From: a virus
IMG/VR virus record: IMGVR_UViG_3300037487_000702
Location: 1 to 34,387 of that record
DNA length: 34,387 bases
Strand: one strand, 5' to 3'
Positions 6,528-34,387 of this stretch are shown piece by piece. Below the pieces are notes generated by a model. That model searched no databases, was not told the DNA's origin, and worked only from the letters and a program-made list of their open reading frames with translations. The number at the start of each line of letters is the position of its first letter. The first letter of the stretch is position 1. The translations under genes and the position numbers were made by a program.

Positions 6528-6967
6528 CAGAGGCGCCCCTCCTGAGCGACGGATGTCCCGAACGTGAAGACGGCGGCGCGGTAGATCGCCTCGCCCATCT
6601 GCACCTCGCTGTCTGTAATGCTCGTCACGCTCGTGACGCTGTTCCCCCCGAGCGCGTGCGGCGCGGCCGTGAAGGCGTCGAGGATGCCATCCACGAGTAC
6701 ATCCATGCGGTCGAGCGTCTGCGCGTTGACCGGGAACGTGTCGAGTACGACCACCGTGAGCCCGGATAACGTCCGCGTTCGGATGCCCGAGTCATGGCCC
6801 ACGGTCTCATTCCGCGCGCCAACGTAGGCGCACGGTTTTTCGAACGCCGTCCCGTCCGGGCGCGCCGAGTAGACGCCCCGGAGCAGCGTCGGATTGGCCG
6901 TCCGATAGGCGTTGAGCACCGTTAGCAGGCCGGCTACGGCGTCCGCGCGGAAGGTCGAGCTTGGCAT
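6527..6967 (-). CDS. Tail completion / tail terminator-like protein
   Basis: 146 aa. It lies between the HK97 gp10-like gene and the tail tube gene, where tail terminator proteins (lambda gpU type) are found. The sequence starts with a helical segment (DAVAGLLTVLNAYRTANP) followed by beta strands and a helix around residues 85-100 (LDRMDVLVDGILDAF), compatible with this small alpha/beta family. The family would cap the tail tube and join it to the head. The start at 6967 shares one base with the upstream stop (TGATG). The assignment rests mainly on synteny. Confidence 0.6.
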   Translation of the reverse strand: MPSSTFRADAVAGLLTVLNAYRTANPTLLRGVYSARPDGTAFEKPCAYVGARNETVGHDSGIRTRTLSGLTVVVLDTFPVNAQTLDRMDVLVDGILDAFTAAPHALGGNSVTSVTSITDSEVQMGEAIYRAAVFTFGTSVAQEGRL

Positions 6968-7488
6968 CAGTCGGCCTCATTCCAGGCGAGGATGATCGGC
7001 TCAATGCCAGAGTCGGCTACGGCCTTCTGCGCTCCGGGCCAGAGGTACGGTGTTGCCCGGCGGCCCTGTGTGGACTTGGCATATGCCCAGCCCGCGACGC
7101 CCACGCCCTTGCGCGTTCTCGAGCTGCCCGTCAGCCGAAGCTGCGCACCACCCGCTCCGCCCCCGCCCGTGTCAACGCGCCAGGCCATGAACGGCTTGCT
7201 CTTGGGCACGATGCGGCGCTTGAGCGGCCCGTGGACGCCGGTGCCGAACTCCACGAACCGCGCGTAGCCCACGCTGTTGATGCCGCCTGCCTCGATCCGC
7301 GCGGTCGTCTCCGTCACGGTCCCGACGCGGATGGATCGCTCCAGGTTGGCCGTCTTGCTGAACGTGCCGGCCGCGATGATCTTCGCTTGCTTGACACCCT
7401 CGAGCGCGATCCGGCCCAGGATCATCTTCGGGTCGCTGATCGCGGCCAGCCGCTTGCGGAGCCCGGTGAGTCCTTCGACTTCGCTCAT
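6967..7488 (-). CDS. HK97 gp10-like head-tail joining protein
   Basis: 173 aa from ATG 7488, chosen because it forms the ATGA overlap with the connector stop. The features GLTGLRKRLAAI near the N-terminus, a helical middle and the motif YARFVEFGTGVHGP followed by KPFM are typical of the HK97 gp10 family, implicated in head-tail joining or tail completion. The C-terminal part (about residues 110-150) has a Gly-rich insertion (TGGGGAGGAQ). It sits directly after the connector and before the tail terminator-like gene. Confidence 0.78.
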   Translation of the reverse strand: MSEVEGLTGLRKRLAAISDPKMILGRIALEGVKQAKIIAAGTFSKTANLERSIRVGTVTETTARIEAGGINSVGYARFVEFGTGVHGPLKRRIVPKSKPFMAWRVDTGGGGAGGAQLRLTGSSRTRKGVGVAGWAYAKSTQGRRATPYLWPGAQKAVADSGIEPIILAWNEAD

Positions 7489-8150
7489 GTCAGCACGACC
7501 TGTTCGCCCGTCTTCCACTCCGCGATGAACAGGGCCACCTCGGTAGGCAGGCGCGACAGGTCGAACGTATTGCCGTCCGGCGTCATGCGGGCGCCGGAGA
7601 GCAGCGCGTCCGGCCGGAGCGTGTACCAGGCGGCGAGCGCCTTCGTGGCGAGTAGCACCGGGTCGGGGATGTCGGCCGTCGCGTAGCCCCAGTCGCCCGT
7701 GATGGAGAGGTCGTTGGGCATCGAGCCACCCGAGCCCGGATAGCGCCACGAGTCGAGGTCGCGGTCAAACCACTCCGGGTTGCCGAGATACCAGCGCGGG
7801 TCGCTGTTGGGCTGGCTGAACGCGCGGAACTGGATGCCGGTCGCCACACCCGTCTGTTGCAGGTCCGGGAGGAGCCAGTATGTGGTGTTGGCCGTCAGCG
7901 TCGTGCCCTGGAGCGTGACGGCGGAGGCCGTCCGTAGGCCGGGGATCGCCATCTGCGCCCGGCCATCCGTGCTGAACACGAGCGTCTTGGTCACGGGTCC
8001 GAACAGGCGCCCGGTGGCCCGCTCCAGTGCCCACCCGGCCGACATGATGTTGCTGCTGATCGTGGCGTCGCTGTACTTGCTGTCCGTCCCCGGCGCGTTG
8101 AGGTCCAGGTAGTCCCTGACGGTCTGGACGCTGACAAACATCGCAGTCAT
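7485..8150 (-). CDS. Head-tail connector (HK97 gp6 / Phage_connect-like)
   Basis: 221 aa from ATG 8150, overlapping the stop of the last glycosyltransferase gene (ATGA). The N-terminal pattern VQTVRDYLDLNAPGTDSKYS, then a helix ending WALERATGR, is typical of the small helical gp6-type connectors that form a ring under the portal. The protein continues with beta-rich and helical sections, including DPVLLATKALAAWYTLRP. In related phages this gene normally sits right after the capsid gene. Here about 6.4 kb of sugar-modification genes lie between them. Confidence 0.78.
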   Translation of the reverse strand: MTAMFVSVQTVRDYLDLNAPGTDSKYSDATISSNIMSAGWALERATGRLFGPVTKTLVFSTDGRAQMAIPGLRTASAVTLQGTTLTANTTYWLLPDLQQTGVATGIQFRAFSQPNSDPRWYLGNPEWFDRDLDSWRYPGSGGSMPNDLSITGDWGYATADIPDPVLLATKALAAWYTLRPDALLSGARMTPDGNTFDLSRLPTEVALFIAEWKTGEQVVLT

Positions 8151-9397
8151 GCGGCGGCCTCCCCTCCGATCGCGGCTTCGATTATCGCACCGAACCGTTG
8201 CGCCGCAACATCCCATCTGAAGTGTTCGGCCACGTGGTACGGCCCCTTGGCCCCCAGCGTGCGGCGCTCGGCCACGTTCGACACGAGCCGTTCCACGGCC
8301 AGCCCGAAGGCGCGCTCGTCAGCCGCCCACCAGGCATGGTCGTATGGGTTGTCCACCAGGTAGCCCTCGGGCACGGTGATCCCAGCCGGGCCGATCACCT
8401 CAGTGACAGAGGAGTAGCGGGCGCCCACGACGGGCACGCCGCACGCCAGCGCCTCGGCGATGGTCAGGCCGAACCCCTCCGCGCTGTTCGTGACGTAGAT
8501 GTCAGCCGCGTTGTAGAGCGCATTCAGGATCTCGCGCGGCGCCCCGCCGTCCTCATCGTGGAAGCGCGTGGACAGGAAGCGCGATGCGATGGGGGCCGGG
8601 TACTTGGAGATCGTGTCCGCGAGGTTGCCGCCTTGGTCGGATGTGCCGCAGTGGTACAGGAAGAAGAGGTCGCGGTGCCCGGCCAGTACGGGCGCGAGCG
8701 AGCGGAGCAGGCGCGCGTACATCTTGCGCGGCATGTGGCGGTCGGCCCGGAAGAGCCACGTGGAGTCCGGCCGCCCGCCGAAGTAGGTTTTGCACTCCTC
8801 GCGCGAGCGCAGCACCTTGCCCGCCAGCCGGATCGGCCGCGCAGCCGAGACGGGCCAGAAGGCGGACGCGTCCACCCCGTGGTAGACGAGCGGCGCATCG
8901 ATGCCGGTTGCGCGCCTGATCTCATCCACGCCGAACTGACTCATCGCCACCGGCTGGACGATCCGCCAGAAGTCGGCCCACGATGGCGGCAGGTCCACGC
9001 CCTCGACCGGGACGTAGTGAAAGCATGGCACCGTGCGGACGGCCGGGAACATCTCCGGCATCCGGCGCACCGCGTGGAAGTCCCCAAGCACGATAACGGC
9101 TTCCGGTGCCCACGGCCCCAGCGGATGATCGGCCCACGTCGGCCCGGAGATCAGGCCATCCATGCGTGCGAGCATCGCCACGGCCGCGGCGTCGTCATCC
9201 GGGATGGCGAGGTAGCCGTCTCGCGCGCCGACCTGGAACGTCCGCCGCCCAATCTCGGCAGTAGGCGGCTTGTCGTCCTCGTTGATCGAGACGAAGCGCA
9301 CGTCGTCACCCTGCGCCAGCAAGGCCGAGCCAAGATCGCGCGTGACGGTGCCGAACCCTGTCCCAGCCTGGTCCCCGAACATCAGAATCCGCGTCAT
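8147..9397 (-). CDS. GT-B glycosyltransferase (family 4-like)
   Basis: 416 aa from ATG 9397 (ATGA overlap with the upstream gene). The C-terminal half carries the classic GT4 donor-binding signature: NAADIYVTNS, then EGFGLTIAEALACGVPVVGA with the E-x7-E pair, then SVTEVIG. The N-terminus begins with a Rossmann-like strand and Gly-rich loop (ILMFGDQAGTGFGTVTRDLG). It would transfer a sugar from a nucleotide donor onto a glycan or protein acceptor. It is the last gene of the sugar cassette and is coupled directly to the head-tail connector. The virion is the likely target (inference). Confidence 0.88.
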   Translation of the reverse strand: MTRILMFGDQAGTGFGTVTRDLGSALLAQGDDVRFVSINEDDKPPTAEIGRRTFQVGARDGYLAIPDDDAAAVAMLARMDGLISGPTWADHPLGPWAPEAVIVLGDFHAVRRMPEMFPAVRTVPCFHYVPVEGVDLPPSWADFWRIVQPVAMSQFGVDEIRRATGIDAPLVYHGVDASAFWPVSAARPIRLAGKVLRSREECKTYFGGRPDSTWLFRADRHMPRKMYARLLRSLAPVLAGHRDLFFLYHCGTSDQGGNLADTISKYPAPIASRFLSTRFHDEDGGAPREILNALYNAADIYVTNSAEGFGLTIAEALACGVPVVGARYSSVTEVIGPAGITVPEGYLVDNPYDHAWWAADERAFGLAVERLVSNVAERRTLGAKGPYHVAEHFRWDVAAQRFGAIIEAAIGGEAAA

Positions 9398-10707
9398 GCG
9401 TGCATCGCCTCCCAGCGTTTGCGGTCCGCATCGATCACCGGCGCCAGCTCGCTCCACCGTTTCCCAGACGATCCGTTGGGCGTGTGGCGCACCGGCACGC
9501 CGAGCACGCGGCACGTCCGAAGCCCACGCGCGCGGACGGCCTCCTCGAAGGCGTCATCGCCGTACCACCAGCCGAAGCCCTCATCGAACGGGATCCCCAG
9601 CTCGGCCTTGAACATGAAGGCGAAGCCGGTCATTCCCCCAGCGCCCCACGAACCGGTTGTCTCCTCGACGGTCCCCGAAGGAGCCAGGACGCCCCACGGC
9701 GCGCGCTCGTCCGGGTAGGCGATACCGGCGTTGGGCCTGGTGCGGAGCGCGTCCCGCAGAGCCGGAAGCGAACCCGGCAGAAGCGCCACGTCGTCGTTGA
9801 GGATGGCGATCTCCGTTGCCCCGGCGGCGCGGGCCATCTGCACCCCGGCGTTCCACATCGCATGGATGCGGTGCCCGAATCGCTCTGACTCCATGAGGTA
9901 GACGCGGATGCGATCCGCCGCCAGCACGCGGAGTAGCTCGGCCAGCTCAAGAGGGTGGTAGCGCGTCGGGATCACGGCCGCGATGGTCGTCCAGTCGCGC
10001 GCGTAGATGGGCGGCAGGGCCGGGAGAGGAGCCGGCGCCGGTCCGGGATATGGCGTCGTGATCCGCGTCCGGATGTCGATTGCGTGCGTCCCGTGGTTGC
10101 TGCCGAGTGCGCCGGGCTCGCGCAGCAGTGCGTGGCCCGCGATCATGCCCGGCACCTGCCCGATGCGGAATCCTGCGGCGCGTGCCGACATGAAGAAGTG
10201 GATGTCCTGTTGCCCGAACCGAGCCGCGGGATCCCCGTCAGCCCGCTCGGCCACCCACGTCCCGCCGTCCAGTTGGTAGCGCCAGTCCGTCGTGAACCAC
10301 GGCCGCGGGGTCTTCTCGAAGACGCGGCGCCGAATGAGCGTGGCGCCGAGTCCGGCCCAGAGGATGTGCTTTGCCTTGTCGCGTACCAGGCAGCCCCACG
10401 CGGCGTCCAGCGCGCCCACCGGGTAATCCACGGCGGCCACGTCGTGCCCCTCGGCCAGCATGGCAAAGCTCGCGGCAAGCGCGCCCGGTGGCGGGATCAC
10501 GTCCTCCTCGACGAACCAGAGCACGTCCGCGCCGGAGGCGAGCCCCAGCTCCGTTACCTGTTCGTCGCAGTCGGGGATCGGCAGATCGTGCGTCACGAAC
10601 CAGCCGCGGAAGCCCTTGCGCCCGGCGATGTTGCCGAGTACGGCCTCCACCGTGCGCGAGTGGATCAGCCCGCGGGACGGCGTGACAACCGCGAACGTGT
10701 CAGCCAC
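9394..10707 (-). CDS. Two-domain GT-A glycosyltransferase-like protein
   Basis: 437 aa, apparently two GT-A-like halves. The first half (residues about 1-215) has an N-terminal strand (FAVVTPSRG) and an acidic metal-site candidate (WFVEEDVIPPPGAL). The second half has a DXD-like motif (IAILNDDVALLPGS) and GFGWWYGDDAFEEAVRARG, typical of GT2 enzymes. It could add two sugars, or one half may be regulatory. The start is GTG 10707, an 8-base overlap with the preceding nucleotidyltransferase. Cytoplasmic; acceptor unknown. Confidence 0.8.
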   Translation of the reverse strand: MADTFAVVTPSRGLIHSRTVEAVLGNIAGRKGFRGWFVTHDLPIPDCDEQVTELGLASGADVLWFVEEDVIPPPGALAASFAMLAEGHDVAAVDYPVGALDAAWGCLVRDKAKHILWAGLGATLIRRRVFEKTPRPWFTTDWRYQLDGGTWVAERADGDPAARFGQQDIHFFMSARAAGFRIGQVPGMIAGHALLREPGALGSNHGTHAIDIRTRITTPYPGPAPAPLPALPPIYARDWTTIAAVIPTRYHPLELAELLRVLAADRIRVYLMESERFGHRIHAMWNAGVQMARAAGATEIAILNDDVALLPGSLPALRDALRTRPNAGIAYPDERAPWGVLAPSGTVEETTGSWGAGGMTGFAFMFKAELGIPFDEGFGWWYGDDAFEEAVRARGLRTCRVLGVPVRHTPNGSSGKRWSELAPVIDADRKRWEAMHA

Positions 10708-11359
10708 GCGCGCTCACCCAGCGGTCGTAGTCGGCCGGGTAATCGAAGTCGTCTGTCATGTCATCGATCACGGTGGCGTCGCCCATGTTGCGGACGCACC
10801 CGCCATCGGCATCCATCATGCCCGTCACGACCGCGCCGTGGTCAAGCAGGTACGACTCCCAGAGTCCGCCGCGCGGGATGTGTCCGGCCTCGTGCAGCGC
10901 ATTCACGGCGCGGAGGGACGCCTCGTGGTCCGCGTGGTGCTCCGGCCAGAAGCTGTTCGCGAATATCTCCGCCCACGGCTTCCCGGTGCGCTTGCTCGGC
11001 CCGAACCGCGCGAAGAGATGCCGGTCGCGCCACACGTGGCTGCCGATTGTCTGCATTGCCGCGTCGCTGTACCAGACATCGCCCATGAGGATGATCGTCC
11101 GCCCCGCGTCGTTCCAGAGTCCGCGGACGCCGAGTCGCCCATCGACCGGATCGATGTCCCACTCCGGGATCACGGTCCGGCATCCTTCGACGCGGAATGC
11201 GCCCGAGATCACGATGTCTCTGATGCCCTCCCGGTGCAGCAGCCGGATTATCCGGTCAAGCAGCGTCTCGCCATCGATGGGGATGAGCTGCTTCGGCACG
11301 CCAAGGTGATTGCCCCATCGCTCCTCGCTGCCCGCGGCCGCGATGATGGCTCGCGTCAC
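10700..11359 (-). CDS. Nucleotidyltransferase (sugar-phosphate or related NTP transferase)
   Basis: 219 aa from GTG 11359 (GTGA overlap). The N-terminus has the NTP-transferase pattern: AIIAAAGSEERWG, then GVPKQLIPIDGETLLDRII (Gly-rich loop plus the PKQ lysine). A probable metal aspartate follows in ILMGDVWYSD. The C-terminal DDFDYPADYDRW resembles the end motif of this fold. Such enzymes activate sugar phosphates or small alcohols as NDP/CDP donors. Within this cassette it may supply a specialised donor for the phage glycosyltransferases. The substrate cannot be read from the sequence. Confidence 0.78.
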   Translation of the reverse strand: MTRAIIAAAGSEERWGNHLGVPKQLIPIDGETLLDRIIRLLHREGIRDIVISGAFRVEGCRTVIPEWDIDPVDGRLGVRGLWNDAGRTIILMGDVWYSDAAMQTIGSHVWRDRHLFARFGPSKRTGKPWAEIFANSFWPEHHADHEASLRAVNALHEAGHIPRGGLWESYLLDHGAVVTGMMDADGGCVRNMGDATVIDDMTDDFDYPADYDRWVSARG

Positions 11360-12084
11360 CACGTCGCCAACCCCTCCGGCCGCGTCCAGTCGGCCCACCA
11401 CTCGCGCAGTTGGTCGTCACCGTAGGCGCCCCAGGTCTGCCAGTGGAAGCCCTCGGTAGGCGGCATCCCGGCAGCTAGCAGCACCTCTCGGCCATGGCGG
11501 ACCTTGCGCCGGGCCTGCTCGAAGCTGCGGAAGGGAACGTGCCGAAGGCGCAGCGGGCCAACCGGAGGCTGCACCTCGCCCGTGAGCCCGTGATTGCCTT
11601 GCTGGATGTGCCGACCAGGACCGGGGCGGAATGCCACCTTGCCGTATGTCGGCCGTGACCACAGTGAGCCCGGACGGTAGTGCGTGATCCGGGAGAACGG
11701 GTTGGGGTCAGGCGGATCGTCGGCCTGCGGCACCATGTCCCACGTCCGCGTCGTGGTGGCGTCCGCGTCCAGCGCCATGAGCACATCCGCGATCCGGCCG
11801 CCTGCGCTGTCCCACCACTCGTCTGCATCGAACGGCACGATCCAGTCGGCGTCGGGCGCCATCGCAGCGAGCCGGTTCATCGTGTCAGTCTGCGAGTAAG
11901 CGTACCGCGGCTCGTCCACCACCACGAGGTCGCCTGTCTCGATGTCCGCGAGCACGGCAAGCGTCGCGTCAGTTGAGCGATTGTCGGCCACGATCACGCG
12001 GTCGCACTCCGCAAGCATATGCCGCACGACGTACCCGGCTACGTCTTCCTCGTTGTGCATCATGCTGATACCAACGACGGTCAT
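11356..12084 (-). CDS. Glycosyltransferase family 2-like protein
   Basis: 242 aa from ATG 12084 (ATGA overlap). The sequence opens VVGISMMHNEEDV and has VIVADNRSTDATL and the metal-binding VPFDADEWW. These are the hallmarks of the GT2-related family in which the acceptor half follows a short nucleotide-binding half. The C-terminal part includes SFEQARRKVRHGREVL, a helical segment often seen in such glycan transferases. It is expected to act in the cytoplasm with a UDP- or GDP-sugar. Part of the eight-gene block between capsid and connector. Confidence 0.85.
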   Translation of the reverse strand: MTVVGISMMHNEEDVAGYVVRHMLAECDRVIVADNRSTDATLAVLADIETGDLVVVDEPRYAYSQTDTMNRLAAMAPDADWIVPFDADEWWDSAGGRIADVLMALDADATTTRTWDMVPQADDPPDPNPFSRITHYRPGSLWSRPTYGKVAFRPGPGRHIQQGNHGLTGEVQPPVGPLRLRHVPFRSFEQARRKVRHGREVLLAAGMPPTEGFHWQTWGAYGDDQLREWWADWTRPEGLATW

Positions 12085-12905
12085 GTCCACTCCTGCCCGA
12101 TCGCGCAAGGGAAGAAGCGCGGGCGGAACTCCATCCAGCGGTCGTGGCCGTGCTGCCAGATCGCGCCCATCGGATTGTCGCCCGCCGGCACGCCGTTCTC
12201 AGCGCACCAGCGGCGCCACTCGCCGTCCAGGGCCGCGGCCAGATTCACCTCGGTAGACCAGCCGATGTGGTCGCACTCGACCCCGAGCGTCGCCACCCGC
12301 CAGCCCGCCTCGATCAGCTCGGCGCCCCAGATGAAGTCGTAGAAGTGGGCCGGCGGCAGCGACCGCGTGAGTGTCAGGTCGGCCAGCGCCGCTCGGCGGA
12401 AGGCCATGAAGAGGCCATCGACGGCCACGCTCGGGCGCAGGTCCGCGATGCGTGGGCCGATCTGTTCGGCCCGGGCATGGCCGCGCTCGCCCCGGAGATT
12501 GCTCATCGTGGTACCGGGCACCCGGTCGCCATCCTCACCGATGGCACACGACCCGGCGAACCCCACGAGGCCGAGCCGTGGATTGTCCGCGAAGGCGTCC
12601 TCCACGCGGAGGTTCCAGCCGGGCTCGTAGAGGATCAGGTCGTTGTGGGCCATCGCCACGACGGCCTCACCCGGAGCGGAGTCGCGCACCTGCGCCAGCG
12701 GGTACCAACTGCCCTCGTTGACGGCGTTGCGCAGCACGCGGACCGGGAACGGCAGCGCGCCCCAGTCCGTCGCGCGGTAGGGCGTCGGGCTGGCATTGTC
12801 GATGATGGCCAGCGCGAAGTCGGGGCCGCGCACCGTCTCCGCAAGCGAGGCAACCGTCTGTGCCGTCAGCTCGTGATTCGCATAGCACGGGATCCCGAGG
12901 ATCAT
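12081..12905 (-). CDS. Glycosyltransferase family 2 protein
   Basis: 274 aa from ATG 12905, overlapping the methyltransferase stop (ATGA). The pattern ILGIPCYANHELTAQTVASL, then LAIIDNASPTP, then a mid-chain acidic motif (VAMAHNDLILYEPGW) fits the GT2/rhamnosyltransferase-like fold. The C-terminal part has FDG/FMAFRRAAL-like acceptor-loop features (VDGLFMAFRRAAL, then HFYDFIWGAELI). It probably extends or branches a glycan. Donor and acceptor are unknown. Confidence 0.85.
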   Translation of the reverse strand: MILGIPCYANHELTAQTVASLAETVRGPDFALAIIDNASPTPYRATDWGALPFPVRVLRNAVNEGSWYPLAQVRDSAPGEAVVAMAHNDLILYEPGWNLRVEDAFADNPRLGLVGFAGSCAIGEDGDRVPGTTMSNLRGERGHARAEQIGPRIADLRPSVAVDGLFMAFRRAALADLTLTRSLPPAHFYDFIWGAELIEAGWRVATLGVECDHIGWSTEVNLAAALDGEWRRWCAENGVPAGDNPMGAIWQHGHDRWMEFRPRFFPCAIGQEWT

Positions 12906-13474
12906 GCCGACGCCTTGCGCACGATCACGAGTCCAGGTGCGATGTCGAGGCGCACGATTGGCGAGACGCCCATCCCGCACTGATCGACGAGGCGCTTGAC
13001 GAAGCCCACCATGCCGGCGGTGTGATCCGGCGCGTAGGCGGCGCCGTCCGACCAGTCCGGCCAGTACCCGGTGCCCCAGTCTTCGACCGCGTAGATGCCG
13101 CCCGGCGCGAGATGCCGCGTGAACAGGGGCCAGAATGACGCTTCGGCCAGCGCGCCGATATGCGAGCAATCGTCAATGATCACGTCGAACGGGCCGCGCT
13201 CGGCCCCGACGCGATCCAACAGCGCCTCGTCTTCCTGCGCGCCCGCGTACATGGCGATGTGATCCGTGTCCGGCATCGTCGGCAAGTCAAGGTCGATCCC
13301 CGTGACTTGGCCCCAGGGGAAGTAATCGCGCCAGACTAGGAGCGAGGCGCCGGTCTGGATGCCGAGCTCGAGGATGCGCACCGGCGCGTTCCGGATCGGC
13401 GCGAAGAACGACTCGTAGATCGGCAGATAGGACGGCGGCTTATTGGCGTGATGCTGTGCGACTAGCTCGATCAT
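12902..13474 (-). CDS. Class I SAM-dependent methyltransferase (CmcI/Methyltransf_24-like)
   Basis: 190 aa from ATG 13474 (ATGA overlap). SAM-binding motif I is VRILELGIQTGASLLVW, followed by an acidic post-I position (TGIDLD) and FDVIIDDCSHIG. YAVEDWGTGYW lies further on. This arrangement is typical of O-methyltransferases acting on sugars and natural products (CmcI, macrolide sugar enzymes). In this context methylation of a transferred sugar is likely. It lies between a second methyltransferase and a glycosyltransferase. Confidence 0.83.
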   Translation of the reverse strand: MIELVAQHHANKPPSYLPIYESFFAPIRNAPVRILELGIQTGASLLVWRDYFPWGQVTGIDLDLPTMPDTDHIAMYAGAQEDEALLDRVGAERGPFDVIIDDCSHIGALAEASFWPLFTRHLAPGGIYAVEDWGTGYWPDWSDGAAYAPDHTAGMVGFVKRLVDQCGMGVSPIVRLDIAPGLVIVRKASA

Positions 13475-13911
13475 CGCGGCTTCCGCAGCACGCAGCGGCC
13501 CTCGATGTCGTCCCGGACGGTCCACTCGGCCTCTTCCCAGAGGCGGATCCCGTACTCGGCGTTCGCGCGCTTCAAGCCGGTGAAGTACTCGAAGCTCTCA
13601 TGAATCCAGAAGGACACGTGCGTCGGGTCCGCCAGCGGCTCCCAGCGGCCGGGCACCATCAGCGGGACGATCACCTCGAACGTGCCGCCCGGCACCAAGA
13701 CGCGGTGCATCTCGTTCATGACGTCGATGCGCTCCTGCCCCGCCGGGATGTGCTCCATGAGATGCGAGCACCGTGCCTCTTCCACGCTGTTGTCTGGCAG
13801 CGGGAACGGGCCATCCTGCGCCCGCCGCCGCCAGATGCCGTCACCGTGGCGCGGGTCCATGTTGGTGAACCCCTCGTGGACGAACTCCCCGCCACCCAGC
13901 TCCAGCTTCAT
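13471..13911 (-). CDS. Class I SAM-dependent methyltransferase (Methyltransf_11-like)
   Basis: 146 aa, small for the family. It starts LELGGGEFVHEGFTNMDPRHGD, a short motif I form common in glycan-cluster methyltransferases. It continues with FPLPDNSVEEARCSHLMEHI, a hallmark of Methyltransf_11 (the acidic LP-D-S-V element and the HxxEHI helix), and VLVPGGTFEVIVP. Starts at ATG 13911 with an ATGA overlap on the preceding glycosyltransferase stop. Its acceptor is probably a sugar hydroxyl or a nucleotide-linked sugar (inference from neighbours). Confidence 0.83.
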   Translation of the reverse strand: MKLELGGGEFVHEGFTNMDPRHGDGIWRRRAQDGPFPLPDNSVEEARCSHLMEHIPAGQERIDVMNEMHRVLVPGGTFEVIVPLMVPGRWEPLADPTHVSFWIHESFEYFTGLKRANAEYGIRLWEEAEWTVRDDIEGRCVLRKPR

Positions 13912-14528
13912 GCTCCCTCGATCCGTGCGTAGGCCGCGTCGATGGCGGCATCATTCATGCGCGAGTGCAGCAAGTGTGCCGCCAGCGGCGCCTTCGGCAG
14001 TCCGGGCGTGCCGCGCGTCTCTTCCTCGGGGAAGCCCTCAAGCGCGATCTGTTCGTGGATGCGCTTGTACCAGCGGCCGGCGGTCCGGCGGAACAGGCGG
14101 CAGTGCCAGTGCTCCTCGAGCTCGGGTGCCTGCACGCCGTCGAACCAGTTGCGCGTGAAGAAGAGCCACCCGCGCGGGGCGTGGTATGTCACGTCCTGCC
14201 ACTCCACGTCGACCTGCGGCTCGGCGTCCACGGTGCGAATGAAGTCCAGCATGGCGGCGCTCGGCAGCTCGTCAGGGTCGAGATGCAGGATCCAGTCGCC
14301 GGTGCAGTGCGGGAGTGCGGCGTTGCGGGCCGCCGAGAAGTCGTCGCACCAGGCGAACGGGACGAGCTTCACGCCGGGCCATGCGGCCATCGTGGCGGCA
14401 GTAGCGGGCCATGTGCGGTCGTCTACCACTATCACCACCTCGCCCACGACAGGGCGCAGGTAGGCCAACAGGAGCGCCAGCCGGTCGAGCGGCGGATCCT
14501 TGACGAGGAAGGCGGCGGTGACGGTCAT
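13908..14528 (-). CDS. Glycosyltransferase family 2 protein, first gene of the glycan cassette
   Basis: 206 aa. The N-terminus TVTAAFLVKDPPLDRL and the strong GT2 block CDDFSAARNAALPHCTGDWI with WILHLDPDELPS (DxD metal site) identify the fold. The C-terminal RTAGRWYKRIHEQIALEG resembles the acceptor-side motif of LPS/TPR-type GT2 enzymes. The gene lies immediately downstream of the major capsid gene. ATG 14528 has no Shine-Dalgarno of its own. It overlaps (ATGA) the stop of a 13-codon frame that does have AGGAGG, so translation may depend on that leader. Confidence 0.87.
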   Translation of the reverse strand: MTVTAAFLVKDPPLDRLALLLAYLRPVVGEVVIVVDDRTWPATAATMAAWPGVKLVPFAWCDDFSAARNAALPHCTGDWILHLDPDELPSAAMLDFIRTVDAEPQVDVEWQDVTYHAPRGWLFFTRNWFDGVQAPELEEHWHCRLFRRTAGRWYKRIHEQIALEGFPEEETRGTPGLPKAPLAAHLLHSRMNDAAIDAAYARIEGA

Positions 14529-14599: not shown

Positions 14600-15913
14600 C
14601 TAGACGAGATCGGTGAGACGCTGGAAGGCGCCGGTTGCGACGGCCGTCCGTGCATCGAATGCGATGTCCTCCTCGCCGCGGAACCCGATGAGGTTGTAGT
14701 CCCACCGAGTGTTAGCCTCGGTGGACGTATCGATGCGATACCCCATCCCGATGTACAGTTTGGCCCGCTTGAAGTCACCCATGAGCAGGGTGCTCGACGT
14801 GATGGAGTTGTCCGGGTAGACGGGGATGCCCCAGACGCGAACCGTGCCGCCCACGTCGAGGTTGAACGCACCCGAGGCTGCACCACCGGCGTAGAAGCCG
14901 GCACCGTCGGCGCCCTGGGAGAACATCGTCCAATAGTCCGCGGCGTTCATCACGGCCGCGGTCGGCTTGACATCGCGCACGGCCATGGCGGACGCGCAGG
15001 CCGCGACGCCGGCGGCTACCGAACCCACGAGTGTCGCGGCGCCGGTGAAGGTGCCGTCGTAAGTCGGCGCCGACGCTGCCAGAGCCGTCAGGATGCCAGT
15101 CGGCTCCGTGGTGCCCGCGCCGCGGTAGATGTAATAACTCTCGCCCAGCGCGAAGCTCCGGGCAAGCTCGTCGATCACGTCGCGCTCTGCCGCGCCAGCG
15201 GAAGTGCGGACGAACCGAGTGCTCAGATCGTAGATCCGCGCGAGCGTGTACAGCGTCGCGGTGTAGCTCAGGTACGCCAGGTCGCTGTTCGTCTTGAGCG
15301 ATCCGGGAGCGATCACGAGCGCCTTGGTCGTCGCCTGCGCACGGTACGGCTGATCCACGCCGACGCCGGTTATGCCGTTGATGACGGTGACGAGCGAGCG
15401 GACGAGGTTCGGCGCGGTCGCCTGCTTCTCAAGCTCGGCCACCAGATTATTCGGGATGATGTAGCCGCCGGTCGCGCCGGTCAGGCCAAGCGTGGCCTTA
15501 GACTCGGCCGGGACGTTGGCGTAGCCGGAGATCGTCGCCAGCTTGGCCTTGGCCGCGCCGTAGAGTTCCGGGTCGTTGCTGTGACTGTCGATGATCGCGG
15601 TCAGGTAGTCCCCCGCCCGGTAGCCCGATGGCGCATGGCCAGGGCCGACCAGCGAAGCCTTCGACGGTGCGTGAGTTGCCGCTTTGGTGGCCTGCCAGTC
15701 TGCCACCGCCGCATCCGTGGCGGCGTCGCGCTCAGCCCGCGCCATCTTCTCCCGGATCTCCCCGAGTTCGAGGGCTGCGGCCTTGCGCTCGCTGTCCGCC
15801 GACTCCCAGCGGGCGGCGTCCTGGCCCTTGCTCTCCTGCATGACGCCAACCGCGGCGTCAATGCGTGCGGTCAGCTTGCCAAGCTGATCCGTCAGCTCAG
15901 TGATCGTGTCCAA
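14600..15913 (-). CDS. Major capsid protein (HK97 fold)
   Basis: 437 aa from TTG 15913. That start has AAAGGA about 9 bases upstream and lies just after the protease stop; other starts would overlap the protease with no ribosome site. Residues about 1-90 are charged and helical (LTDQLGKLTARIDAAVG), matching the scaffold-like delta domain removed by the prohead protease. The body has HK97-type features: GATGGYIIPNNLVAELE, DELARSFALGESYYIYRGAG, and the C-terminal GFRGEEDIAFDARTAVATGA. It forms the icosahedral shell. Conventional head genes lie upstream; the glycan cassette lies downstream. Confidence 0.93.
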   Translation of the reverse strand: MDTITELTDQLGKLTARIDAAVGVMQESKGQDAARWESADSERKAAALELGEIREKMARAERDAATDAAVADWQATKAATHAPSKASLVGPGHAPSGYRAGDYLTAIIDSHSNDPELYGAAKAKLATISGYANVPAESKATLGLTGATGGYIIPNNLVAELEKQATAPNLVRSLVTVINGITGVGVDQPYRAQATTKALVIAPGSLKTNSDLAYLSYTATLYTLARIYDLSTRFVRTSAGAAERDVIDELARSFALGESYYIYRGAGTTEPTGILTALAASAPTYDGTFTGAATLVGSVAAGVAACASAMAVRDVKPTAAVMNAADYWTMFSQGADGAGFYAGGAASGAFNLDVGGTVRVWGIPVYPDNSITSSTLLMGDFKRAKLYIGMGYRIDTSTEANTRWDYNLIGFRGEEDIAFDARTAVATGAFQRLTDLV

Positions 15914-15926
15914 CGTGGTGATCCTT

Positions 15927-16619
15927 TCAGTCTGTCGAGATGTCGAGTTTCGCCAGCACGGCGGCAAGTTCGTCGATCGCCTTTCGCAGCGCCGCCTCGT
16001 TCATGGCACTGAGCACTCGCCCCGCCTTCGCCGCATCGTCGCCCCGTTCGGAGGTTCGATGCAGGTCGGCCCGGAGGTCGGTCAGGTCCGCGACGATATC
16101 GGCCCAGAAGGCGTCCGTCGGGGTTCCGCCTGTGGCGTAGAGGTCGTCAATGCTCGCCTTGAGCGGTCGCAGCACCGACTTGGTGTTCTGTGGACTGGTG
16201 GAGAGCGTCTGCCGCCAGTACGGCCACAGCAGGATCTCGCCCGTCTCGGCCTTGCGCGTCTGGCCGGCGATGCTCTCCGATGATCCGAAGATGGGCGCAC
16301 GTTCGGCTAGACGGCGGATCAGCTCCACGCGGCGCTCGCCGTGGTTGAGCCAGACAGTCACCCACCAGCCGTCGTCCTCCATGATCGGGTCAATTGCCTT
16401 GCCGAGCGGCGTCCGGCCCAGCAGGCGGTCGCCGCCGTGGTGCCAATCGACGATGCGCTCGGTGAGCCATCCCGGCTTGATGTCCGTGTGCTCCGTGAAC
16501 GTCTCGCCGTCCACGTCCACACCGCGCGGGAAGATGGCGGACGGGATCGGGCCGCCAAACGGGATCGCCAGCAGGCGGAAGGCGTCATCGTCGAGGAGAG
16601 TCGCCTTCAGCGGGTTCAT
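15927..16619 (-). CDS. Prohead protease (HK97-like, S78-type)
   Basis: 230 aa, between portal and capsid genes. Candidate catalytic residues are His60/His61 in VDWHHGGDRLLG and the serine pair in IFGSSESIAGQ (about 113-114), followed by GEILLWPYWRQTLSTSPQN, the strand-turn pattern of HK97-type head maturation proteases. The C-terminal 80 residues are helical and may serve as scaffold. It would cleave the capsid delta domain and itself during maturation. Starts at ATG 16619, overlapping the portal stop (ATGA). Confidence 0.83.
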   Translation of the reverse strand: MNPLKATLLDDDAFRLLAIPFGGPIPSAIFPRGVDVDGETFTEHTDIKPGWLTERIVDWHHGGDRLLGRTPLGKAIDPIMEDDGWWVTVWLNHGERRVELIRRLAERAPIFGSSESIAGQTRKAETGEILLWPYWRQTLSTSPQNTKSVLRPLKASIDDLYATGGTPTDAFWADIVADLTDLRADLHRTSERGDDAAKAGRVLSAMNEAALRKAIDELAAVLAKLDISTD

Positions 16620-26034: not shown

Positions 26035-27051
26035 TTACGCATGAGCAAGACGGCCTAGCTGGGCGGCTGAGTGGATTGGCTCGGCGTCCCAAAGACCCTG
26101 CTTGAGACACCAAGGGGAAAACCAGATCCGCTCGCGCGTCTGGTTCTTCGCGGCTGGCCCGCCGCGACCGCCCCCATAACCGCCCTTTGTGGTCCAGCCA
26201 ACCTCGCTCCACCCCGGCATCTCCCCCTCGTACCCGCACAGGGCAATCCGGAGGCGCACGTCGTCACCGTTGGCGATGGCCCACTCGCGGACGGCGTCCG
26301 CGACGCTCAGGCTGTCCTTGGCGTACAAGTCGGGGGTGCGGCCGTCGGCGTAGGGCGGATCGAGGAAGACGGCGCAGGCGCCCTCGTTGCCGGCGCGGCT
26401 CCTGCTCGCGCCGAACAGCACGGCGGGGGTGACGACGCGCGTCCAGTCGCCGGCCATAATCATCACGTCGTGCAGCCGCTCGGCCAGCGGCTCGAACACC
26501 GACATCAGCCCGCCCGCGCGGAGAAGCTTCCGGTGGATGCCCTTGCCGTCGTCGCCCGCGTGGAGAAGCTTCCGGTGGATGCCCTTGCCGTCGTCGCCCG
26601 CGTGGAGAAGCTGCCCATCCGTGACCTTCCACGGCCCTTTACCGGAGCACCAGCCGCCACCGATCCACAGGCCGATCCCCCACAGCCACCAGCCCGCCGC
26701 CTTCGCGTCGAACCAGTCCGGGTCGCCCTCCAGGCTCGCTGTCAGCGCCTCGCGGTGCCCCACGAGCCAAGCGTGGCGGGCGTGCATGTCGCTCTCGGTC
26801 GCCGGGTAGTCCGCCCACTCCGCGACGGCATCGGGATCGCGCTGCATCGCCCGCCAGACGTTGACGAGCAGGCCGTCGCTGTCGTTGACAATCTCTCGCC
26901 CGCCGAACGGCTGGGGCCTGGCGAGGAGCACCGCGAGCGATCCGGCGAACGGCTCGATGTAGCGCGGCACGTCGCCGAACCGTTCCCACACGAACCCGGC
27001 AGCGCGGGACTTGCCACCGAAGTACGGGAACGGAGCCTTGATTGCCGTCAT
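26035..27051 (-). CDS. dam: DNA adenine methyltransferase (D12 class, Dam-like)
   Basis: 338 aa from ATG 27051 (ATGA overlap). The N-terminus has the SAM-binding FPYFGGKSRAA and YIEPFAGSLAVL. The catalytic motif IV is FLDPPYADG (Asp231-Tyr234), as in D12-class N6-adenine methyltransferases. The enzyme would methylate phage DNA, most simply to evade restriction. Residues about 147-176 contain two exact copies of a 14-residue unit (KLLHAGDDGKGIHR type, 42-bp DNA repeat at 26521-26604), an insertion between SAM site and motif IV. No cognate restriction enzyme is visible. Confidence 0.9.
   Translation of the reverse strand: MTAIKAPFPYFGGKSRAAGFVWERFGDVPRYIEPFAGSLAVLLARPQPFGGREIVNDSDGLLVNVWRAMQRDPDAVAEWADYPATESDMHARHAWLVGHREALTASLEGDPDWFDAKAAGWWLWGIGLWIGGGWCSGKGPWKVTDGQLLHAGDDGKGIHRKLLHAGDDGKGIHRKLLRAGGLMSVFEPLAERLHDVMIMAGDWTRVVTPAVLFGASRSRAGNEGACAVFLDPPYADGRTPDLYAKDSLSVADAVREWAIANGDDVRLRIALCGYEGEMPGWSEVGWTTKGGYGGGRGGPAAKNQTRERIWFSPWCLKQGLWDAEPIHSAAQLGRLAHA
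26521..26604. repeat. Perfect 42-bp tandem duplication in the methyltransferase gene
   Basis: 26521-26562 and 26563-26604 are identical. They encode two in-frame copies of HAGDDGKGIHRKLL, with a third partial match just after. The repeat keeps the reading frame and sits in the variable region between the SAM and DPPY motifs. Confidence 0.9.
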
Positions 27052-27221
27052 CGCAGCGCCGTCAGCAGCAGGAGTCCCACGGCCATCCGAACGAGCGCCA
27101 GGGGCGAGACGGAGCGAGGGCCGCACGCGGCGTTGCGGCACAGGCGGTCGGGCTCGCAGGCGGCGCCGAAGCGCCGGGCATGGGCGCGGCGAGGGGAATC
27201 GGGGGCGAGGGAGCGGGTCAT
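27048..27221 (-). CDS. Small Cys-containing membrane protein
   Basis: 57 aa from ATG 27221 (ATGA overlap). The basic N-terminus includes three cysteines (FGAACEPDRLCRNAACG). A C-terminal hydrophobic segment, LALVRMAVGLLLLTAL, is long enough to anchor in a membrane. Function unknown. It is coupled to both the HTH gene and the methyltransferase gene. Confidence 0.6.
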   Translation of the reverse strand: MTRSLAPDSPRRAHARRFGAACEPDRLCRNAACGPRSVSPLALVRMAVGLLLLTALR

Positions 27222-33352: not shown

Positions 33353-34387
33353 TTACCAGTATGTGCCGGTGCCAAGGGTTGCGTTGACCACTGTTAGCTT
33401 TACCCACCACCCCATAGGTATGCCTAGCTCTACCGTCTCCACCAGCCCTGCCAACGTTGCCAACATAGGGTAGGTCTTGGTAGTAACCGTTGTGAACGTA
33501 GAGTTGTCCGGTGACACCTCTACCGTACATGTTGCAGTGGCGACCGCCGACGGGTTGTAGGTCACTGGCACCACAAGGTGTACGTCCCGCGTGTCTGTAG
33601 GGCGGAACGCCGCGCCGCTGACCGGGGTAACGACCGGGAGCGCCCCTGCGGTGATTGTGTTCCCTACCACCGTTGGGGCGACCCTTCCCGCCGCGTACAG
33701 CGCCGCGACCTCGGCCGCCGTCAGCGCGCGGTCCCAGACGGCGGAGTCGTCGAGGGTGCCGATCAGCCCCCCGAATCGCCTCACGGTACCGGTGGTTGCC
33801 AACTTGATCGGCGCGTCGACGCCGCTGCCGGCGATGGGCAACCCGTCGTAGTAGACCGCCGTTGTGGCTCCCGACTTGGCGAACACCCAGAAGTGAGCAC
33901 CAAGATCGGTGTAAGCAGCCGTGCTCCGCCACACGTACCCGGACCCCGACGGAGAAATCCCCATCCGGTTGTCAGCCTCCCACAGGACTGCAAGCGCACC
34001 CGTCCCGCCGTCCAGAAAGCGATCCAGGGTGCCCGCAGCAGCCCTGGCGACCCAGAAGGCAAACGTCCAGTCGTCCACTGACTCAGGGAGCCCCGAGCAA
34101 GTCATCTTCTGGGGCGTCCGGTCGCCGAACGCCACCGCCGTATCCGCATCGCCCGTCAGCAGCCCCGCCACGCCGAGCGTCGGCGCGCCGACGTAGGTGC
34201 CGGGATACGCGCCCATCTCGTCGCGTGCAACCGTGCCTGACGCCTCCCCGAACCGCCAGTAGCCTATGGGGTGGGTGGCAAGGACGACCAGTGCGTGGCT
34301 CGACAGTCGTGGTCCGGGGGGACCCTGTGGCCCGGGGATCGGCACGCCGTCAAGCCCGTCCTCGCCATCGAGGCCCGATACTCCCCG
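33353..34387 (-). CDS. Tail hub / fibre protein, C-terminal part: collagen end, LamG-like domain and C-terminal domain
   Basis: This is the in-phase continuation of the gene at 1-2749. It enters from the right edge with collagen triplets (GVS, GLD, GED) and the IP break. Residues about 905-1105 are a LamG/concanavalin A-like domain: THPIGYWRFGEASGTVARDE, then DDWTFAFWVARAA, TAVYYDGLPIAGS and GTLDDSAVWDRALTAAEVAA, a typical end motif. Such domains bind carbohydrates, so receptor binding is likely. The last 110 residues are another beta-rich domain (TATCTVEVSPDNSTF) encoded by DNA of lower GC content. A GTG at 34345 could mark a start but lies inside the collagen, so it is not taken as one. The stop is TAA 33355-33353. 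Confidence 0.85.
   Translation of the reverse strand, partial: RGVSGLDGEDGLDGVPIPGPQGPPGPRLSSHALVVLATHPIGYWRFGEASGTVARDEMGAYPGTYVGAPTLGVAGLLTGDADTAVAFGDRTPQKMTCSGLPESVDDWTFAFWVARAAAGTLDRFLDGGTGALAVLWEADNRMGISPSGSGYVWRSTAAYTDLGAHFWVFAKSGATTAVYYDGLPIAGSGVDAPIKLATTGTVRRFGGLIGTLDDSAVWDRALTAAEVAALYAAGRVAPTVVGNTITAGALPVVTPVSGAAFRPTDTRDVHLVVPVTYNPSAVATATCTVEVSPDNSTFTTVTTKTYPMLATLAGLVETVELGIPMGWWVKLTVVNATLGTGTYW
34252..34377. repeat. Terminal direct repeat, right copy
   Basis: Identical to bases 1-126. The final ten bases (34378-34387) instead match 370-379 (34340-34387 equals 332-379), so this end reads a shorter version of the collagen region. Confidence 0.95.

Follow-up and report, generated by a model that had tools for sequence, protein, structure and literature searches.

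Cluster O mycobacteriophages, namely Corndog and its relatives, carry an O-methyltransferase, two glycosyltransferases and a putative N-acetylglucosamine (GlcNAc)-transferase within the virion operon, and their authors proposed a complex modification of the capsid with methyl groups and glycans (PMC4351075). Glycans on capsid and tail were reported for the mycobacteriophages Che8 and Rita (Freeman et al. 2023, as cited in PMC11256854 and PMC12619734). Because capsid glycosylation occurs in other phages and genes comparable with those studied here are present in Corndog-type phages, a system of this kind is already known. Here, we examined IMG/VR record IMGVR_UViG_3300037487_000702, described as a soil-type phage, the whole of which (34,387 bases) is hereafter called the window. 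Eight genes for soluble glycan- and methyl-modifying enzymes lie on its minus strand, running from position 14528 to 8147 between the gene for the HK97-type capsid protein and that for the head-tail connector, and are coupled to the capsid-connector operon. We regard it as likely that this cassette is a virion-glycosylation locus that an entire lineage of small siphovirus-like phages carries in its head operon.

The Corndog-type genes differ from the cassette in that they lie between portal and protease and form a smaller set, and the accessible sections of their description mention no lineage-wide exchange. As to Che8 and Rita, the glycosyltransferase genes of Maravista, a relative, are placed near the 3′ end of the genome, not beside the capsid. 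The nearest annotated phage with a comparable layout is Pontimonas phage phiPsal1 (MG835450), which combines an HK97 capsid, a GT4 glycosyltransferase, an S-adenosylmethionine (SAM) methyltransferase, a GT2 glycosyltransferase and an HK97 gp6-type neck protein; however, it has three genes only, its methyltransferase is on the opposite strand, and its GT4 is 24% identical and stands first rather than last. Microcystis phage Mae-JY09 shows the order capsid, hypothetical protein, glycosyltransferase. The Streptomyces phages Yara and Rooney encode a homologue of the cassette's nucleotidyltransferase (31-35% identical over 99%), which overlaps a glycosyltransferase gene and has a methyltransferase gene adjacent to it, but this trio comprises just these genes and is found at the operon's tail end, where it follows a large gene that itself comes after the minor tail genes. 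Methyltransferases about 35% identical to one of the cassette (MT_B) occur in Mycobacterium prophages, beside a glycosyltransferase and upstream of terminase. In an open-licence library, the coverage of which is incomplete, we found no description of such a locus being fixed throughout a lineage with GT4 as its constant member, of its taking up so large a share of the genome, or of its interior being exchanged repeatedly.

Eight coupled genes between capsid and connector

As determined by Pfam, PHROG and structure comparisons, the cassette encodes five glycosyltransferases, two SAM methyltransferases and a nucleotidyltransferase; one of the glycosyltransferases consists of two GT-A domains. 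Its first gene, GT_A1 (13908..14528, minus strand as are all eight), specifies a GT2-type glycosyltransferase (Glycos_transf_2 PF00535, 4e-8) that opens one class of cassettes, type II below, and is found at the same place in 19 contigs including the window. It is followed, through an ATGA overlap, by the short SAM methyltransferase MT_A (13471..13911; Methyltransf_11 PF08241, 4e-5; phrog_6636, 1e-8) and then by the SAM methyltransferase MT_B (12902..13474; phrog_21658, 5e-20, with weak Pfam matches). Two further GT2-type glycosyltransferases come next, GT_B1 (12081..12905), which matched Glyco_tranf_2_5 PF13712 at the cut-off (4.6e-6) and PF00535 at 2e-4, and GT_A2 (11356..12084; Glyco_tranf_2_4 PF13704, 1e-11). 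The sixth gene (10700..11359) encodes a MobA/IspD-like nucleotidyltransferase presumed to activate a sugar-nucleotide donor (NTP_transf_3 PF12804, 2e-6; phrog_33187, 8e-35). GT7 (9394..10707), of 437 residues, had no Pfam family and was assigned as two fused GT-A domains from structure models of both halves, and GT4 (8147..9397; Glycos_transf_1 PF00534, 1e-11) is the terminal glycosyltransferase, universal in the lineage. Open reading frames (ORFs), starts and families agreed with a preliminary description of this DNA, which had recognized the eight-gene block from the letters alone.

All eight downstream junctions, the connector's included, are overlaps of 4 or 8 bases, just as that description had stated. 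Seven of them are 4-base ATGA/GTGA overlaps, the last being the one between GT4 and the connector (7485..8150, minus strand; phrog_442, 2.5e-8), which is of the ATGA type; the single 8-base overlap, GTGGCTGA, joins the nucleotidyltransferase gene to GT7.

The two GT-A-like halves proposed earlier for GT7 were recovered when each was aligned and modelled separately with AlphaFold. The half models reached predicted local distance difference test (pLDDT) scores of 80 and 85, and each matched solved GT-A enzymes with a probability of 1.00. For the N-terminal half, the best solved match was A197 of Sulfolobus turreted icosahedral virus (STIV; PDB 2c0n, E 5e-7, TM-score 0.58/0.66), whereas the C-terminal half had many matches to GT-A enzymes, including bacterial GT2. 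STIV A197 is essential and possibly glycosylates the glycosylated capsid protein of STIV (PMC10551542); it differs from the GT7 half, however, in belonging to an unrelated, archaeal virus and sharing only 20% identity, and its donor and acceptor are likewise only presumed. Other phages have a gene of its own for each half, which makes the gene in the window a fusion.

A close relative, contig L002, has the identical eight-gene order, its cassette proteins being 80-92% identical to those of the window and its structural ones approximately 82-97%. Against this relative, the ratio of nonsynonymous to synonymous substitution rates (dN/dS) was 0.13-0.34 in the measurable cassette genes versus 0.05-0.22 in structural genes, a set that leaves out GT_A2 and the gene at 6967-7749; by these ratios, the measured cassette genes are under purifying selection. 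Since the order is conserved in L002 at dN/dS values of about 0.13-0.34, and since the position is kept in all the more distant relatives described below, the arrangement is not due to chance.

A constant GT4 and an exchangeable interior

Distant relatives were collected by profiles of GT4 (68 loci), the capsid (43 loci) and the major tail protein (23 loci). Among them, 51 related viral contigs had both capsid and connector, with capsids about 60% divergent on average, and all 51 carried a glycan cassette at the same place, the distance from capsid stop to GT4 stop ranging from 2.2 to 8.1 kb (median 5.0 kb). GT4 itself lay between capsid and connector in each of the 51, always just upstream of the connector. 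In 38 of the 51, its stop codon overlaps the start of the connector gene, the overlap being 4 bases long in 36 contigs and a single base in the other 2. Four of the 51 contigs were ambiguous, by frame boundaries only; domain coordinates settled three, and the fourth, L029, has both domains in order within one frame. This frame (L029:5881-7869) runs through GT4 and connector without a stop, and may reflect a genuine fusion of the two genes, the loss of a stop codon or an error in sequencing. GT4 was also present in all 27 contigs found with the capsid profile alone, a few of which are near-copies, and in 17 of 17 contigs found with the tail-protein profile whose sequence extends beyond the connector by more than about 1 kb on its upstream side.

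The preliminary description had regarded the cassette as an insertion between capsid and connector genes that are normally adjacent. This synteny scan did not bear that out, and a model of recent insertion was rejected, there being no cassette-free relative among the contigs with both flanks. On the contigs compared, the cassette is an ancestral feature of the lineage and not an insertion peculiar to the window phage.

The EX7E motif of GT4 (E314-x7-E322) was invariant in five aligned sequences, so that the enzyme combines the Glycos_transf_1 domain and the motif by which the GT4 family is recognized. The best solved relatives of its profile were mycothiol- and PIM-type GT4 enzymes. Pairwise distances of GT4 correlated with those of the connector (r = 0.68), portal (0.66) and capsid (0.59), and virion genes correlated among themselves at 0.54-0.75; the mean divergence of GT4 (0.51) was lower than that of the capsid (0.60). 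Judged by these distances, GT4 is inherited like a virion gene. The 51 contigs, the connector overlaps and the co-inheritance thus show cassette genes that are linked to the virion operon and have been kept along with it.

The interior, in contrast to GT4, varies. Type I cassettes (31 contigs) mostly contain an FkbM methyltransferase and two further proteins, one of them weakly glycosyltransferase-like, and type II cassettes (19 contigs, the window included) start with the window's first GT2 gene. Well-supported branches of the capsid tree require at least five switches between the two types. Other interior genes encode epimerase/GDP-mannose-dehydratase-like proteins, an asparagine-synthase-type amidotransferase, a hexapeptide transferase, a cytidylyltransferase, extra methyltransferases and further GT2 enzymes. 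An acyl-building module of GNAT acetyltransferase, short-chain reductase (SDR) and KAS III lies between capsid and GT4 in L024 (4437-7451) and in a matching stretch of L101, and both contigs also carry a small gene resembling acyl carrier protein (ACP), with no Pfam match. The smallest cassettes, those of L042 and L043, consist of GT_A1 and GT4 only. Self-contained donor activation, another earlier proposal, was upheld in part: the nucleotidyltransferase makes activation plausible, but no full sugar-nucleotide pathway is present in the window and most relatives lack the gene.

We saw neither multi-pass membrane proteins nor flippases in the cassettes; one same-strand protein of the interval has two hydrophobic stretches, and none has more. 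Nor did the cluster representatives searched include any family of membrane flippases or membrane-bound transferases, which would mark host serotype conversion. Bacterial O-antigen and capsule loci have conserved flanks around an exchangeable block of glycosyltransferase, sugar-nucleotide and decoration genes. The cassette differs from them in lacking flippase, polymerase and lipid-carrier enzymes and in being located in a phage head operon.

Cassette genes also appear to travel between unrelated phages at their head loci: at L003:4235-7630, upstream of a different capsid gene that was named by eye, we observed relatives of MT_A, MT_B and the N-terminal half of GT7. Separately, distantly related copies of an opposite-strand gene with no assigned family are present at differing points of four cassettes, L002:5536-6111, L011:9802-10566, L024:9204-9773 and L028:9111-9950 (all minus strand), and absent from that of the window; it is possibly a mobile or immunity gene.

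The probable acceptor and the alternatives

A methylated glycan on virion proteins, as suggested in the preliminary description, is the best reading of the cassette because of its fixed position in the head operon, the coupling to the connector, the exclusively soluble enzymes, the match to STIV A197 and the published glycosylation of phage capsids; the glycan itself and its acceptor are what we infer from these features. The cassette enzymes would work in the host cytoplasm during head assembly, since they come without any multi-pass membrane protein or flippase. As the only constant enzyme, GT4 would act on a constant, shared acceptor, most simply a virion protein, that is, the capsid, the connector or another head or tail protein. 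It probably primes the glycan by attaching the first sugar, and a capping role is possible. The variable GT2/GT-A enzymes would then extend the glycan, the methyltransferases would cap it, and the nucleotidyltransferase, where present, could supply an unusual activated sugar. The exchange of interiors may have come about because different surfaces were favoured in different hosts or settings, and the outcome would be virions with an exchangeable methylated glycan surface, made by a locus resembling O-antigen loci in its fixed ends and exchangeable interior. Capsid and connector would be the leading acceptors, and the tail tube or fibre is possible. More tentatively, and with rather less than even confidence, we propose that glycosylation of a head protein is fixed in a deep uncultured lineage, with the universal GT4 priming a conserved residue of capsid or connector and the swapped cassettes, of two main architectures and in some cases with ACP/KAS III acyl-building genes, defining for each phage a particle "serotype" of its own and recombining as O-antigen loci do.

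If virion glycosylation is correct, it would be an obligatory and diversifying trait of a whole phage lineage instead of an occasional add-on, and one to which nearly one-fifth of a 34 kb genome is devoted. One constant enzyme with many variable cassettes would offer a comparative system for the purpose of virion glycans, such as shielding, adsorption, stability or escape from recognition by hosts or predators. Moreover, the glycosyltransferase and methyltransferase genes of virus contigs, which are frequently classed among auxiliary metabolic genes acting on the host surface, might build virions. Several points weigh against it. All members of the lineage are known from genes alone, gene position can reflect the timing of expression rather than the acceptor, and the substrate cannot be read from a glycosyltransferase or methyltransferase fold. 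The capsid sequence has no obvious added acceptor tail, and because cassette-bearing phages supplied the profiles, remoter relatives free of the cassette could have escaped the count of 51 in 51.

A narrower form of virion glycosylation, in which the cassette modifies a tail protein such as the collagen-like fibre or the tail tube and not the head, takes up a minor part of the likelihood given above and is on its own improbable. It would agree with the collagen-like fibre encoded across the contig ends, with the related trio of Streptomyces phages, which follows a large tail-region gene, and with the tail-tube glycans reported for Mycobacterium phages (PMC12619734); however, the constant neighbours of the locus are capsid and connector and not the fibre, and threonine occupies position Y in no more than 3 of the 22 Gly-X-Y triplets that make up the longest repeat. 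A BclA-like glycosylated collagen-like fibre was for this scarcity of threonine considered a weakly supported main target. Alternatively, the enzymes could alter glycans of the host wall or surface, thereby blocking superinfection or adsorption to debris, and the head position would mean late expression only. Such a role is often assigned to phage glycosyltransferases (PMC7029224, PMC10202952), and the kinship of GT4 with mycothiol- and PIM-type enzymes would suit it. We nevertheless judge it unlikely, slightly more so than a tail target: flippase, polymerase, polyprenyl-phosphate transferase and other multi-pass membrane proteins were not seen in the cassettes, the virion-like inheritance of GT4 speaks against it, and the strict position and connector coupling in every member would be left unexplained. 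Modification of the wall near lysis would also be of little use, though possible against superinfection or rebinding to debris.

The addition of sugars to phage DNA bases as a protection from restriction is far less probable still. Phage DNA glycosyltransferases do exist (cited in PMC12619734; PMC12838424), and the window has a partial match to a D12 adenine DNA methyltransferase. The thymidylate-synthase/hydroxymethylase family PF00303, however, was absent from the window and present in only 1 of 25 records in a search whose controls worked, and a search for Tet/JBP gave no match, although its positive control also matched nowhere. FkbM and other sugar-methyltransferase content and the exchange of cassettes at the head locus would not be explained either. 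DNA or host-surface modification is thus less likely than glycosylation of the virion.

Genome and neighbouring genes

Positions 1-136 and 34252-34387 of the window form a near-identical end repeat (131/136 matching) that falls within a collagen-like tail-fibre gene open at both contig ends. Because this repeat lies inside a gene spanning both ends, the window is probably a near-complete or complete, circularly permuted genome of approximately 34.25 kb; the record may be classed as linear despite the repeat. Recognizable genes on the minus strand include those for terminase, portal, a protein in the protease position, capsid, cassette, connector, neck and tail. The ORF of the HK97-type major capsid protein spans 14600..15967 (minus strand; Phage_capsid PF05065, 1.4e-23; phrog_10, 4e-33), with its true start probably near 15915.

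A DNA-level search against isolates gave no match for the window, and tblastn searches with capsid and portal matched none of 50,697 phage records, so the evidence on the lineage rests on IMG/VR contigs. The capsid profile strongly matched only two Chloroflexota genomes, L123, a contig of a metagenome-assembled genome, and L128. The L123 contig joins an mnmA-like gene, a tyrosine integrase and a capsid gene (gene names assigned by eye), a mix that suggests prophages and a Chloroflexota host, as a lead and not a result. Away from the head genes, the window contains a holin and a RecT/YqaJ recombination pair. The D12-class match mentioned above lies in the ORF at 26035-27141 and covers the first 70 of 253 positions, the ORF being possibly truncated or misframed.

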